DNA of 20,581 nt. Source: a virus. Below, piece after piece: positions 3,302-10,194 of this stretch. The stretch spans positions 1-20,581 of the IMG/VR virus record IMGVR_UViG_3300047560_001379; one strand, given 5' to 3'. Made by a program: the position numbers and the translations under genes. The notes under the pieces are model-generated. The model made no database searches, was not told where the DNA came from, and saw only the letters and a list, made by a program, of their open reading frames with translations. The stretch's first letter is position 1. The number at the start of each line of letters is the position of its first letter.

Positions 3302-3436
3302 ACCCCCGTATGGTCTGGGATGGCACGATAAAGACAATCTTTACGATCCATCCCTCCGAGGTGTTGTTGGTAGCATACCGGACTCTTAATCCGAGAGGTG
3401 TCAGTTCGAATCTGACTGGGGGGACCATATGGGGGT
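3302..3436 (+). other. Nested helices enclosing tRNA-Lys(CTT)
   Basis: ACCCCCGTATGGTC (3302-3315) is complementary over 14 bp (one G-U) to 3423-3436, which contains the ACCA end of tRNA-Lys(CTT) and the first six bases of tRNA-Lys(TTT). Inside it GGGATGG (3317-3323) pairs with CCATCCC (3348-3354), whose last three bases are the start of tRNA-Lys(CTT), around an inner TAAAGA/TCTTTA hairpin. Both helices compete with the tRNA acceptor stems, so they could delay or order processing. Confidence 0.6.
3352..3427 (+). tRNA. tRNA-Lys(CTT)
   Basis: Acceptor CCCTCCG/TGGGGGG with wobble pairs, anticodon loop CTCTTAA (CTT), T-loop TTCGAAT, discriminator A, encoded CCA. It decodes AAG, the lysine codon favoured in the HNH and DUF2828 genes. 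Confidence 0.93.
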
Positions 3437-3508
3437 ATAGTGTTAACGGTTTAGCACAGCAGACTTTTAATCTGCCAGGTCAGGGTTCGAATCCCTGTGC
3501 CCCTACCA
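3431..3508 (+). tRNA. tRNA-Lys(TTT)
   Basis: Acceptor GGGGGTA/TGCCCCT with G1-U72, anticodon loop CTTTTAA (TTT), T-loop TTCGAAT, discriminator A, encoded CCA. Three nt separate it from tRNA-Lys(CTT). Confidence 0.95.
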
Positions 3509-4399: not shown

Positions 4400-4494
4400 G
4401 CCCTTGTAGTTTAGTGGTAAAACACCCGGCTTATACCCGGCACATGTCCCCAGATTAGGGAGCGTCCCTGGTTCGAATCCAGGCGAGGGTACCA
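4400..4494 (+). tRNA. tRNA-Ile(TAT) with long variable arm
   Basis: Acceptor GCCCTTG/CGAGGGT (G1-U72), class I D-arm, anticodon stem CCGG/CCGG with loop CTTATAC (TAT), T-arm CCTGG/CCAGG with TTCGAAT, discriminator A, encoded CCA. At 95 nt it is about 18 nt too long: the variable region carries a TCCC/GGGA hairpin as in Ser, Leu or Tyr tRNAs. It would decode AUA if charged with Ile; identity from the anticodon is therefore less sure. Confidence 0.82.
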
Positions 4495-6801: not shown

Positions 6802-7176
6802 ATGAAAATCACAGAGGATCAGTTTAGATATGAGTGGTTTTCTGGTACAGGTAAAGGTGGACAGCACCGCAACAAACATCAAAACTGTTGCCGCTGTATA
6901 CATGAGCCAACTGGAATAACTGCTAACGGCACTAATAGTCGCAGTCGTGAAGATAACAAACGTGCGGCATACATCAATTGCTTGAGTAGAGTTCAAGCAC
7001 ACTTCCACGAAGATACACAACGCTATCTAGCCGGAGAAGAAAGAATCAGAACATACCACGAACCTGACAACAGAGTAGTGGATCATGCTAGTGGCTTCAC
7101 TGATACATATACCAATGTTGTTGTAAAAGGCAACATAGATGATGTAATTGAAGCTAGAGCAAAAACAGTAAGATAA
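6802..7176 (+). CDS. GGQ-domain release-factor-like protein
   Basis: A 124-residue protein with the peptidyl-tRNA hydrolysis motif of class I release factors: SGTGKGGQHRNKHQN with GGQ at 19-21, then PTGI and the SRSREDNKRAA helix. Its C-terminal part RIRTYHEPDNRVVDH (about 81-95) and VKGNIDDVIEA match the end of RF1/RF2. Full RFs have about 360 residues; this lacks the N-terminal domain and the codon-reading domain 2, so it cannot read stop codons in the usual way. It resembles stand-alone GGQ proteins (ArfB, RF-H types) that release peptides from stalled or damaged ribosomes, but the RF-type tail differs from ArfB's basic tail. Good Shine-Dalgarno (AAGGAG). It sits between two tRNA-Ser genes. 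Confidence 0.85.
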   Translation: MKITEDQFRYEWFSGTGKGGQHRNKHQNCCRCIHEPTGITANGTNSRSREDNKRAAYINCLSRVQAHFHEDTQRYLAGEERIRTYHEPDNRVVDHASGFTDTYTNVVVKGNIDDVIEARAKTVR

Positions 7177-7177
7177 T

Positions 7178-7267
7178 AGAGAGTTGCCTGAGAGGCTGAA
7201 GGGCGCACCCTGGAAAGGTGATGGTCGCTATTGCGGCACAAGAGTTCGAATCTCTTACTCTCTGCCA
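7178..7267 (+). tRNA. tRNA-Ser(GGA)
   Basis: Class II tRNA with acceptor AGAGAGT/ACTCTCT, anticodon loop CTGGAAA (GGA), long variable arm, T-loop TTCGAAT, discriminator G, encoded CCA. It begins one base after the preceding stop. Confidence 0.96.
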
Positions 7268-7286
7268 ACTGTTTACCCAAAATCTA

Positions 7287-7326
7287 TTGACGGTAAACAC
7301 ACTTTACGATACAATACTTGTATTGA
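7287..7326 (+). promoter_or_regulatory. Sigma70 promoter of ncRNA B / DUF2828 unit
   Basis: TTGACG (7287-7292), 17-bp spacer, TACAAT (7310-7315). The 19 bases 7308-7326, including the dyad CAATACTTGTATTG (7312-7325), are identical to 2069-2087 at the promoter of ncRNA A. No other promoter is seen before the CDS at 7847. Confidence 0.85.
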
Positions 7327-7838
7327 ATGAATTGAGAAAGTTTTTAGGATCGGTACAGCAACATAATCATTTTTATGAACTGGTGGTGTCTATGGTAGTT
7401 ACTGGAGGGTACGCCCATTGAAGGTAACTATTGAAATAGCATTATCGCAACAGGAGTGATGGCCCTGTTTAAAAAAGCAGTCAGCAACGATCCTGTTATT
7501 TTTATTTGGATGAGTACAGCAAGTAAAAACAATTCTTTACCGCTAATGCAGTAGACGGCGGCCCCTGGAAAGGCTATAGCTAGGAAACTAGACGCTAATG
7601 GAACTGACGACTTATGGAAAGACATATATGATGTTTGTACAGACACAACACAAACTAGTCAACATGAATTGTTGATAGGGCTCTAGGAAACTGAACCAAT
7701 ATACAGGGGAAAGGCTAGACCAGAAAGAAAAACTTAACCTGTTTCGATCATCCAGTTTTATTTTGGGATACTCACAGCAACACTTTATTTTCTCATTGGA
7801 AAAAGAAAATGTATCCCGCTTCATAATCACATAGAAAG
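7322..7838 (+). ncRNA. Putative structured RNA B upstream of DUF2828 gene
   Basis: More than 500 nt without a credible gene, between the promoter and the Shine-Dalgarno of the DUF2828 gene. Visible helices: AGGATCG (7346-7352) with CGATCCT (7488-7494); within it TAGTTAC (7396-7402) with GTAACTA (7424-7430) around a GGG-TACG-CCC hairpin, and AACAGG/CCTGTT. Then CTAG-GAAA-CTAG (7580-7591), TCAAC/GTTGA, and GGGATAC (7765-7771) with GTATCCC (7811-7817) around ATTTTCT/AGAAAAT. Three words occur twice: CGCTAATG (7541, 7593), CTAGGAAACT (7580, 7683) and GGAAAGGCTA (7567, 7708). It may be a separate RNA bound by the downstream TROVE-like protein, a long regulatory leader, or both. No known family recognised. 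Confidence 0.6.
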
Positions 7839-7846
7839 GAGAAACT

Positions 7847-9265
7847 ATGAAGTTCGTTGACGCAATCAAGAATCAAGAAGCCCGTACTGCCAATGGCATG
7901 AAGGCGCGAGTCTCTAGCGCAAATGCGTGTGTAGACTTGTTTTACAATATCGGCGCAAGCCGAGGCAAGAACATTGTTCCTGCTTTTACAGCGGCTTACC
8001 TAGAAAACTCCGATCTAGCGTTGCGTATCGCCCAATGGGCACGTGACGTTCGCGGTGGCTCCGGTGAACGTGAATTGTTCCGTGACGTCCTACGTCACTT
8101 GGAAAAGACTTCTCCAGAAGATGCTTTGCGTCTAATGAAGAAGGTCCCTGAAGTTGGTCGTTGGGATGACTTGTTCGTTTTCACTGACCCTAAGTTGAAG
8201 TGGGAAGCATACAACATGTTGGGCGATGCCCTTCGTGCTGGTAACGGTTTGGCAGCTAAGTGGACACCTCGTAAGGGTAAGGTCGCGGCTGAAATCCGTG
8301 AAATGTTCGGTATGACTCCAAAGCAATACCGTAAGACTCTAGTTGGTATGACCAAGGTTGTTGAAACACAAATGTGTGCCAACGACTGGGATAACATCAA
8401 CTTCAGTCATGTTCCTTCTGTCGCTCACTCACGATACAAGAAGGCATTCGGTCGCCATGGTCAAACATACGCTGAATACGTTTCTAAGTTGGTGAAGGGT
8501 GAAAGTGGTGTGAAGATTAACGCAAGTGCAATCTTCCCTTACGATGTATTGAAGGGCCGCATCGGTCGCTACAACACAATGTCTAAGCAAGAACTTGACG
8601 TTGTTCAAGCACAATGGGATGCACTGCCTAACTATGTCGGTGCCTCTAATGTTCTACCTATGGTAGACTCTAGTGGTTCTATGACAACTGCGGCAGGTGG
8701 TTACGGTTCTAAGTCAGGTCTAACCTGCTTGGAAGTCGCAATCTCCCTAGGCTTGTACTTTGCGGACAAGAACACCGGTAAGTTCAAGGATACATTCTTG
8801 ACCTTCAGTAACACTCCTAAGTTGGTGAGCCTACATGGTAACATCAACGATAAGATCAACCAAATGAACACAGGTGAGGTAGCTAACACTAACTTGCATG
8901 CGGCAATGGCATTGATCTTGGATGTAGCTGTCAAGAACAATGTTCCTCAAGCAGAAATGCCTGAAACATTGGTAATCTTTTCTGACATGCAATTCGATCA
9001 AGGCGTAAAGCGTGACGAATCAGCAATGGAAATGATTGAACGCAAGTTCAAGGCGGCAGGTTACACTGTCCCTCAAGTTGTGTTCTGGAACTTGAACGCC
9101 GCATACGGTAACACTCCTGTCAAGTTTGACAAGAAGGGTACTGCTCTAGTCTCTGGCTTCAGCCCTGCTGTTGCTGGTGGTATCATGGGCGGTAACATGG
9201 ATGACTTCACACCAGAAGCAATCATGTTGAAGACCGTTATGAAGCCTCGTTACGACTTGGCTTAA
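7847..9265 (+). CDS. DUF2828 protein: TROVE-like RNA-binding plus vWA domain
   Basis: A 472-residue protein with the DUF2828 pattern: WARDVRGGSGERELF near residue 65, VPEVGRWDDLF near 105, LAAKWTPRKGK, then a PKQYRKTL...KAFGRHGQTY block and KINASAIFPYDV, followed by a von Willebrand A domain with MIDAS DSSGSM (D274, S276, S278) and later acidic sites (LVIFSDMQF). This helical-repeat plus vWA plan parallels Ro60/TROVE proteins, which bind misfolded RNAs and Y RNAs; DUF2828 itself is functionally uncharacterised as far as I know. Strong Shine-Dalgarno (AAAGGAG). Lysine codons appear to be all AAG, suggesting high expression. Structured non-coding RNA lies on both sides, which fits an RNA-protein particle. 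Family call is confident; the RNA-binding role is inference. Confidence 0.88.
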   Translation: MKFVDAIKNQEARTANGMKARVSSANACVDLFYNIGASRGKNIVPAFTAAYLENSDLALRIAQWARDVRGGSGERELFRDVLRHLEKTSPEDALRLMKKVPEVGRWDDLFVFTDPKLKWEAYNMLGDALRAGNGLAAKWTPRKGKVAAEIREMFGMTPKQYRKTLVGMTKVVETQMCANDWDNINFSHVPSVAHSRYKKAFGRHGQTYAEYVSKLVKGESGVKINASAIFPYDVLKGRIGRYNTMSKQELDVVQAQWDALPNYVGASNVLPMVDSSGSMTTAAGGYGSKSGLTCLEVAISLGLYFADKNTGKFKDTFLTFSNTPKLVSLHGNINDKINQMNTGEVANTNLHAAMALILDVAVKNNVPQAEMPETLVIFSDMQFDQGVKRDESAMEMIERKFKAAGYTVPQVVFWNLNAAYGNTPVKFDKKGTALVSGFSPAVAGGIMGGNMDDFTPEAIMLKTVMKPRYDLA

Positions 9266-9566
9266 TATACACTCGGATTACACTTTGCCGTTATTATAAG
9301 TGGGTAGGTTGTTACCAAATCAACCGGGTACGCAGGGAATTACCTTAAGGCTCACAGTCGAGCGACTTAAAAATACCGTGGGGCAGAACTTGACTGTCCA
9401 TATAGAGACAAGTAGGACGGAACCTTAAACCCACGTTGGGGCTTGGTAGTGCGAGTAGCCAACACTAAATATCATAGACACCCTAGACAAACATACGCAA
9501 TATTAGTCTTACACGACCTACGTTCTTTATTAATACATTATACATAGAGCAACTAGGGTGTTTTTT
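9266..9566 (+). ncRNA. Putative structured RNA G downstream of DUF2828 gene
   Basis: 300 nt with no credible gene. GTGGGT (9300-9305) can pair with ACCCAC (9429-9434), enclosing GGTTG (9307-9311) with CAACC (9321-9325), an AGTC/GACT hairpin and an ACTTG/CAAGT hairpin. A GTTGG...CCAAC helix with inner GGCT/AGCC follows. ACACCCTAG (9478-9486) pairs with CTAGGGTGT (9553-9561), followed by TTTTTT, a terminator-like end though the 66-nt loop is long. It is either the long 3' UTR of the DUF2828 mRNA or a separate RNA. Structure by eye only. Confidence 0.5.
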
Positions 9567-9572
9567 CTGCTC

Positions 9573-9601
9573 TTGACAATAATTTCCGTTTAGTATATAA
9601 T
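9573..9601 (+). promoter_or_regulatory. Perfect-consensus sigma70 promoter
   Basis: TTGACA (9573-9578), 17-bp spacer, TATAAT (9596-9601). It starts tRNA-Leu(GAG) and probably the four-gene operon that ends at the terminator 11186-11211. Confidence 0.92.
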
Positions 9602-9615
9602 ATAGTTTAGTTAAT

Positions 9616-9692
9616 GCCCCGGTGGTGGAATTGGCAGACACGCCACGTTGAGGTCGTGGTATTTGTGGGTTCGAATCCCATCTGGGGTACCA
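9616..9692 (+). tRNA. tRNA-Leu(GAG) lacking the long variable arm
   Basis: Acceptor GCCCCGG/CTGGGGT (G1-U72), Leu-type D-arm, anticodon stem CCACG/CGTGG with loop TTGAGGT (GAG), T-loop TTCGAAT, discriminator A, encoded CCA. At 77 nt it has only about five bases in the variable region, whereas leucine tRNAs are class II with a long arm. It may be a deletion derivative; charging is uncertain. Confidence 0.88.
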
Positions 9693-9705: not shown

Positions 9706-10194
9706 ATGTGGATTCAAAATGTAGCATTGAGTGATATCCCGAAAGGGCATCATGTGCGTGTGGGTGAAAATTCTATGCTGATTCAAATTGTTGATCCGTG
9801 CATGGAGTTCCCTACTCCCTTGCACAAGTTTAAAGAGGTACATCAGTTTGAATTCTTGGACCTTGAGCGTGATGACAAGTTTGGCGAAGAATTTAAAATC
9901 ACCGATGAACAAGCCGAGCAATTGGTTAAGTTGTTGCAACATGCCCTTGAAAATCGTATGGATGTTGTCGTTCATTGTGTCGCAGGTGTGTGTCGCAGTG
10001 GCGCAGTATGTGAAGTTGGTGTGATGATGGGCTTTCAGGACACTGAGGATTTTCGTAGCCCTAACTTGCTGGTCAAACACAAAATGATGAAAGTCTTGGG
10101 TTGGACCTATGATGAAAACGAACCACATACAATCAATGGTATTGAATTAGATTCAGGATTGATTGTGCCTAAGAATTACGAAGGTGATATATGA
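9706..10194 (+). CDS. CX5R (dual-specificity-type) phosphatase-like protein
   Basis: A 162-residue protein with the cysteine phosphatase loop VVVHCVAGVCRSG: catalytic C91 and R97 in the CX5R spacing, preceded by H90. A candidate general acid lies earlier (DLERDDKFGEEF region). The family removes phosphate from Tyr/Ser/Thr, RNA 5' ends or lipids; small stand-alone phage members are mostly uncharacterised. Good Shine-Dalgarno (AAAGGAA). First protein gene after tRNA-Leu(GAG); its TGA overlaps the next ATG (ATGA). It shares the operon with a metallophosphoesterase, so two hydrolases of phosphate esters are made together. Confidence 0.82.
   Translation: MWIQNVALSDIPKGHHVRVGENSMLIQIVDPCMEFPTPLHKFKEVHQFEFLDLERDDKFGEEFKITDEQAEQLVKLLQHALENRMDVVVHCVAGVCRSGAVCEVGVMMGFQDTEDFRSPNLLVKHKMMKVLGWTYDENEPHTINGIELDSGLIVPKNYEGDI

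Follow-up and report, generated by a model that had tools for sequence, protein, structure and literature searches.

A phage DUF2828 gene with a predicted Ro60 architecture and its candidate Y-RNA-like elements

Organization of the locus

The stretch of DNA analysed here (the window) has a length of 20,581 nucleotides (nt) and is the whole of IMG/VR virus record IMGVR_UViG_3300047560_001379; bare coordinates are positions in this window. The contig is rich in tRNA genes, with 24 predicted by ARAGORN. Between two of these lies a gene for a DUF2828 protein, and upstream of it are three RNA elements built on one plan. The protein and the elements are the subject of this report, and we consider them a likely phage counterpart of Ro60 and its Y RNAs. 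The features from the promoter to the gene are as follows.

7287-7315, + strand: sigma-70-like promoter TTGACG-17-TACAAT (10/12 match), ahead of the leader and DUF2828
7347-7493, + strand: RNA element 1 (family 0), end stem GGATCG/CGATCC, core CAGCAA at 7356-7361, structured head of ~110 nt
7508-7753, + strand: RNA element 2 (family 1), end stem GGATGA/TCATCC, core CAGCAA at 7517-7522, structured head of ~210 nt
7766-7816, + strand: RNA element 3, the leader hairpin, end stem GGATAC/GTATCC, core CAGCAA at 7775-7780
7836-7841, + strand: ribosome-binding site AAGGAG of DUF2828, as read from the sequence, directly 3' of element 3
7847-9265, + strand: DUF2828 gene, 472 amino acids, product predicted to be Ro60-like with a helical-repeat ring and a MIDAS vWA domain

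The product of 7847-9265 matches DUF2828 and DUF7788 in Pfam, the latter being the vWA part, and PHROG 850, which is named "RNA-binding protein". The MIDAS DxSxS residues D274, S276, and S278 show no variation among 36 homologues. The gene is the one named in a preliminary description of this DNA, which had reported a DUF2828 gene with a MIDAS vWA domain between gene-free tracts of more than 500 nt before it and 300 nt after it. These tracts measure 579 nt (upstream flank, 7268-7846) and 350 nt (downstream flank, 9266-9615), and neither contains a convincing gene. They are bordered by tRNA-Ser (7178-7267) on the upstream side and tRNA-Leu (9616-9692) on the downstream side. Rfam detects only tRNAs in the window, and otherwise nothing beyond chance even at E 10, so that known RNA families were set aside for the flanks. 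At the DNA level, the matches listed between this region and named phages cover tRNA genes and part of DUF2828 only.

A 21-nt repeat at 7341, 7502, and 7760 marks the starts of three units in the upstream flank. Each unit opens with a 6-nt strand and closes with the exact complement of that strand. The common plan is a small RNA with paired ends of 6-7 base pairs (bp) and an unpaired CAGCAA core located 3 nt inside the 5' strand; this combination of stem and core is called the module below. The end stem of element 3 reaches 7 bp if 7765/7817 is counted, and the element stops 30 nt 5' of the start codon. A covariance model (R1), trained solely on relatives of the window, matches element 1 (E 2.2e-4) and element 3 (E 1.2e-4). 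The window holds no module copies besides these three, and the remaining weak pattern matches resemble chance. None of the three elements has the T arm, closed acceptor stem, and D arm that define a tRNA-like head of the YrlA kind.

Conservation and covariation in relatives

The upstream flank was compared with 80 related sequences from IMG/VR. Matches come as movable blocks whose order can differ. Across the 81 sequences, 174 occurrences of the 5' motif lie on the gene strand and one on the opposite strand, with ~3 expected by chance. Over all loci, a perfect 6-nt closing strand is found within 300 nt of 361 of the 395 distinct copies of the 5' motif. The expectation is ~60 of 395 when the stems are re-dealt among the copies and 22 when the letters of the stem are shuffled. 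This test is independent of selection by pairing. The closed copies use 26 different stem sequences, and the closing strand is followed by UGT in 304 of the 361.

The later alignments select on the end stem; therefore, only interior helices are counted as new evidence there. Clustering of the interiors placed 57 members in the family of element 1 and 46 in that of element 2, alongside 134 short hairpins resembling element 3 and 63 elements that hold a tRNA T arm. Covariation was 0.442 in the element 1 family (shuffled mean 0.182), 0.514 in the element 2 family (0.219), where 98.3% of cells are paired, and 0.737 in the tRNA-like family (0.188). It is lost in all three families once the partner is slid by 1-3 columns. 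Covariation across homologues, which the preliminary description had put forward as a check, is therefore present for the upstream flank.

The same description had called both flanks full of helices. For the upstream flank this holds, since homologous copies covary. Folding energy was dropped as evidence for structured flanks: calculated on the single sequence, the z score against shuffled sequence is -1.05 for the upstream flank and -1.53 for the downstream flank. As neither folds better than shuffled sequence, richness in helices is by itself no evidence.

Promoters with at least 10 of 12 matching positions stand ahead of the element 1 family in 40 of 56 copies, compared with 0 of 56 in shuffled sequence, but ahead of the element 2 family in only 4 of 45. 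Since promoters precede the first family and seldom the second, a single transcript probably spans all three elements and the gene. The position before the gene is also conserved. Among 51 distinct leaders of relatives, 47 have an element inside the 120 nt upstream of DUF2828, and all 51 have one inside 600 nt. In KVP40, the start codon of DUF2828 is itself part of the closing strand of the leader hairpin.

Linkage of the element to DUF2828

Viral contigs were scanned with the 5' motif alone (TTTTAGGATNNNNNCAGCAAC), which gave at least 118 usable stretches. Among the matches listed, DUF2828 lies within the stretch in 73 of 118; it is on the same strand as the element in all 73, and the element is upstream of it in 72. 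Searching whole contigs adds 9 and 10 more, so that 92 of the 118 listed have DUF2828. Of the listed contigs of at least 80 kb found by the motif alone, 13 of 14 encode it. A scrambled motif retrieved 12 stretches, none with DUF2828, and the background frequency of the gene is 1.3% of phage records (681 of 50,697). In 26 contigs that were searched whole, most motif matches are on the gene strand and at most ~15 kb away, and the reversed pattern is nearly absent.

The association extends to distant phages. Thirteen phages were fetched in which DUF2828 has 32-47% identity to the window protein. Their loci contain 31 elements in the orientation of DUF2828, against 2.9 with permuted cores, and 6 on the opposite strand, against 2.5. 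The core is identical and the 3-nt spacing is nearly always kept. Beside DUF2828, there are four elements in FelixO1, eight in Bacillus phage BcoS-136, three each in Listeria phage P61 and Finnry, three good ones in KVP40, four in Milchi (with the core CAGCAC), and two in Synechococcus phage BUCT-ZZ01. In the complete genomes of Finnry and P61 and the near-complete genome of BcoS-136, good elements cluster solely at the DUF2828 gene.

Predicted fold of the DUF2828 protein

A sequence search against solved Ro structures gave no link, and the best sequence matches in the PDB were weak and unrelated; fold comparison was therefore needed. A first AlphaFold model had a mean pLDDT (predicted local distance difference test) of 69, and Foldseek placed Ro60/Rsr at the top (E 2.4e-6). 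A second model, made from a more diverse alignment, reached a pLDDT of 78.1 and a pTM (predicted template modelling score) of 0.76. When this model was compared by VIA-align, the ten best matches were all Ro60/TROVE structures, with Z of 13.6-18.1 over 365-403 residues, followed by vWA-only proteins with Z of at most 12.6. The Ro matches included Xenopus Ro (Z 18.1, 403 residues), a TROVE crystal structure (17.1), the Ro60 of phage phiLo (15.7), Deinococcus radiodurans Rsr (13.7), and human Ro60 (13.6). In the predicted model, the DUF2828 protein has the Ro60 architecture, a helical-repeat ring followed by a vWA domain. The TROVE-like ring, whose absence from a predicted fold would have spoken against the preliminary description, is seen in a model that matches Ro60 across both domains.

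tRNA-like heads and tagged tRNAs

Several relatives have elements whose head is a tRNA mimic with its halves exchanged: it opens with the T arm and the 3' strand of the acceptor stem, and after a short loop the 5' strand of that stem and the D arm follow. The Rfam model of YrlA (RF02553) matches such relatives with 40.1 bits at full length in one (L056) and 30.8 bits in another (L022). Its gathering score of 69 bits is reached in no relative, and the window has no YrlA match. R1 recovers tRNA-like elements near DUF2828 in Finnry (E 2.4e-12), FelixO1 (2.8e-11), BcoS-136 (4e-9 and 5.7e-9), and phiM12 (1.3e-7 and 9.6e-7). The elements of FelixO1 include an unannotated tRNA-like RNA located between tRNA-Asp and tRNA-Lys (NC_005282, ~24,575-24,712). 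R1 also matches pairs of ordinary tandem tRNAs weakly, with E as low as 2.8e-4 in control arrays. Matches were therefore counted only with E below 1e-6 or with the core and closing stem present.

The module also occurs inside tRNA genes. Otherwise ordinary tRNAs with a module hairpin between the D arm and the anticodon arm, called tagged tRNAs, are found at the following positions.

L095:7954, L110:5828, L125:2073 (- strand), L141:8499 (- strand), L187:4985
Citrobacter L202:8034; cyanophage L204:7619 and 7750; Aeromonas L205:10374

The Aeromonas tagged tRNA is annotated as a 114-nt pseudo-tRNA, as is a similar tagged tRNA (L202:7988-8101) adjacent to the Citrobacter one. Two R1 matches, L202:7913 (Citrobacter Ci1) and L204:7618, belong to tagged tRNAs and were left uncounted as Y RNAs. 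Circular permutation converts a tagged tRNA into a tRNA mimic and vice versa. Neither is among the elements of the window.

Two distant elements show further arrangements. In Sinorhizobium phage phiM12 (L210:3317-3456), a tRNA-like element whose halves are swapped retains an ACCA encoded behind its acceptor strand, and its end stem is long. It may be more than a mimic, namely a genuine permuted tRNA gene. In BcoS-136 (L240:16116-16255), the head keeps the usual order of a tRNA and includes an anticodon arm, and the module stands in place of the acceptor end. This is a third mode of joining the module to a tRNA.

Downstream flank and other features of the window

The downstream flank has two features of its own.

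9478-9486 / 9553-9561, + strand: terminator-like stem ACACCCTAG/CTAGGGTGT enclosing a 66-nt loop, with TTTTTT directly behind it
9573-9601, + strand: promoter TTGACA-17-TATAAT (12/12 match), kept in A6, for tRNA-Leu and the downstream genes

The terminator-like stem is kept in relatives with one compensatory change (CATCCTAG/CTAGGATG in L024), and 9478-9561 is probably the end of the transcript. In the preliminary description, both flanks and the gene lay behind one promoter. The promoter at 7287-7315 is there, but the downstream flank contains this second, perfect one, and with the terminator-like stem before it, the region is not all one simple unit. No copy of the CAGCAA module is found in 9266-9615, and this flank gives the Ro60/Y-RNA-like reading no support. 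Its first part (9266-9465) is a block conserved in L004, L011, and L027, and in L066 it is located ~2.5 kb upstream of the DUF2828 gene. It is possibly a further small movable RNA that lacks the CAGCAA core.

Several neighbours are of separate interest. A tRNA at 3431-3505 is detected by Rfam but not by ARAGORN. The tRNA-Ile(TAT) at 4400-4494 is 95 nt long and has an additional hairpin of ~25 nt in its variable region. Within the tRNA array, 6802-7176 encodes an RF-1 domain protein bearing the GGQ motif, which is probably a phage factor for ribosome rescue or peptidyl-tRNA hydrolysis. A dual-specificity-phosphatase-like protein is encoded at 9706-10194, immediately 3' of tRNA-Leu.

Relation to known systems

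The locus resembles the Ro60/Rsr and Y RNA systems of animals, Deinococcus, and Salmonella (rsr-YrlA) in the predicted Ro60 fold with its ring and MIDAS vWA domain, in small RNAs whose ends pair and whose genes adjoin that of the protein, and in the YrlA layout of the tRNA-like heads of relatives. It differs in that the phage protein belongs to DUF2828/DUF7788 and not to Pfam TROVE, and in that the phage core is CAGCAA on the 5' strand. Each phage also has several different RNAs, one of them in the leader of the protein's own mRNA, and the module is also found within tRNA genes.

Ro-like proteins adjoining tRNA arrays are likewise seen in mycobacteriophages, Listeria phage CKA15, jumbo phages, and Thermus phage phiLo, for whose Ro60 a structure exists (PDB 9l5y). 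In mycobacteriophages, a "Ro-like RNA binding protein" is annotated, and Y RNAs were reported earlier, as cited in PMC12282133. TROVE proteins of jumbo phages and a Vibrio phage relative of Ro60 have been described (PMC7824862, PMC7765460). For CKA15, PMC12282133 reports an Rsr-like protein in virions and abundant upstream noncoding RNAs that were proposed as Y RNAs, with the most abundant at 26,236-26,727 of OR088597. An identity of three abundant CKA15 RNAs with CAGCAA elements was considered and rejected, as the only one for which coordinates were found (26,236-26,727) is not such an element. The corresponding region of P61 (L214:4393-5052), like CKA15 ~26,236-26,727, is a gene-free tract of ~500-650 nt behind a good promoter and lacks the CAGCAA module.

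Circularly permuted tRNA genes of algae and archaea (PMC3978253) also place the 3' half of a tRNA before the 5' half, but the phage elements have a conserved end stem and CAGCAA core, and it is DUF2828, rather than ligases, to which they are linked. Like the elements, the large phage RNAs GOLLD and ROOL are structured, noncoding, and encoded in or near the tRNA arrays of phages (PMC12286853). In contrast to these, the phage elements are modular and 45-300 nt long, and neither the window nor the flanks has a GOLLD or ROOL match in Rfam. A search of the open literature, outside which the key Y RNA papers lie, found nothing on the CAGCAA module, the two large head families, the copies in DUF2828 leaders, or tagged tRNAs. 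Within it, DUF2828 is mentioned in only four papers, none of them phage-centred by title. The shared module and the tagged tRNAs look new, whereas pairs of Ro proteins and Y RNAs in phages are already known.

Proposed function and alternative explanations

The elements are short, have paired ends and a conserved unpaired core, and are encoded near a Ro-like gene, as Y RNAs in general are. Together with the predicted fold, the covarying upstream elements, and the YrlA-like heads in relatives, this upholds the proposal of a Ro60/Y-RNA-like module. The link to Y RNAs is stronger than in the preliminary description because elements of relatives with the same stem carry tRNA-like heads matched by the YrlA model. 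We therefore judge the locus likely to specify a Ro60-like RNA-binding protein of the phage together with Y-RNA-like client RNAs that share one binding stem.

In the proposed mechanism, the promoter at 7287-7315 would give one transcript with a leader of three RNA elements, followed by the DUF2828 mRNA. The DUF2828 protein would bind this module in a manner resembling the contact of Ro60 with the end stem of a Y RNA; the linkage, the fold, and the conservation of exactly the stem and core point to this contact. The heads would be interchangeable and may recruit or imitate other RNA-handling partners, with two large folds and a bare hairpin in the window and tRNA mimics in relatives. With a copy of the module 30 nt before the start codon, free protein would probably shut off its own translation. 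The tRNA-like heads may tether tRNA-handling or RNA-decay enzymes or serve as decoys. Such a tether or decoy role has been proposed for YrlA and for the machine of Rsr, Y RNA, and PNPase (cited in PMC12282133).

A broader proposal, in which we place equal belief and doubt, is that one tag, the stem with its CAGCAA bulge, is read by DUF2828 and gathers varied phage RNAs into Ro-like particles across many hosts. These RNAs would be new RNAs of large size, tRNA mimics, the mRNA of the protein itself, and tagged tRNAs, with mimic and tagged tRNA as circular permutations.

Several observations weigh against the Ro60/Y-RNA interpretation. None of the 36 homologues matches Pfam TROVE (PF05731), while all match DUF2828 and DUF7788; with no sequence match to PF05731, the window protein is not filed under TROVE. 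Plain Foldseek on the second model places vWA domains first and not Ro60, and the Ro60 assignment therefore rests on the VIA-align step and on Foldseek with the first model. The internal loop of YrlA and the CAGCAA bulge on the 5' strand of the phage elements differ in placement and sequence. Serratia phage BF and Salmonella phage Munch have DUF2828 with no element within 6 kb of the gene. In CKA15, the CAGCAA cluster (~25.3-25.6 kb) lies apart from the most abundant noncoding RNA of that phage. Finally, contig G009 (L150; 180,565 bases) has good elements, two of them tRNA-like, and neither a DUF2828 nor a TROVE gene was detected in its 180 kb. Its DUF2828 gene may be lost, diverged, or beyond the fragment. 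TROVE was also considered as the partner in contigs that lack DUF2828, and none was found there.

The modules could instead be sites of RNA processing or circularization, where permuted tRNAs and other RNAs are cleaved in the stem and then sealed by a ligase, in the manner of the permuted tRNA genes of algae and archaea, with DUF2828 as a helper at most. This would suit the many tRNA-like elements that place the 3' half (anticodon or variable region, T arm, and acceptor strand) before the 5' half, the ACCA encoded between the halves in phiM12, and the real tRNA genes that bear the module hairpin between the D and anticodon arms. However, the majority of heads are not tRNAs, and the YrlA Y RNAs are permuted alike without splicing. 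Ligases also fail to track the elements: among 19 large contigs, RtcB is encoded in none, a T4 Rnl1-type ligase in 2, and RNA_ligase in 4, compared with 18 for DUF2828. Processing or circularization is improbable on this evidence. We give slightly less credence to the idea that the elements are general repeats or regulatory structures of phage tRNA arrays, to which DUF2828 is linked merely by shared location. Elements and DUF2828 are indeed both within or beside tRNA clusters, and the order of elements is shuffled among relatives. However, four tRNA-array phages without DUF2828 yielded a single chance element on the tRNA strand, the core and the 3-nt spacing recur beside DUF2828 in phages of very different hosts, and an element stands directly before the gene in nearly all leaders (47/51, as above).

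Alternatively, the reader of the module may be a protein of the host (its Rsr, a ribonuclease, or a chaperone), with DUF2828 in the same pathway and no contact with the RNAs. Many host bacteria have Y RNAs and Rsr, and the elements of G009 would fit such a reader. The core is, however, identical in phages of Salmonella, Vibrio, Bacillus, Listeria, Mycobacterium, and a cyanobacterium, and a single reader is unlikely across such different hosts. We hold this explanation to be very improbable. A phage Ro60-like protein with its own client RNAs accounts best for the locus.

Significance

The role of Ro60 and Y RNAs in bacteria and phages is a long-standing question. The presence of the module beside DUF2828 in unrelated phages, among them the laboratory phages FelixO1 and KVP40, suggests a likely role for DUF2828 and locates its RNAs. 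The intergenic space of phage tRNA arrays thereby becomes a set of testable RNA genes, and some phage "pseudo-tRNAs" are explained as tagged tRNAs. Binding, autoregulation, and tRNA mimicry all become testable with short synthetic RNAs.

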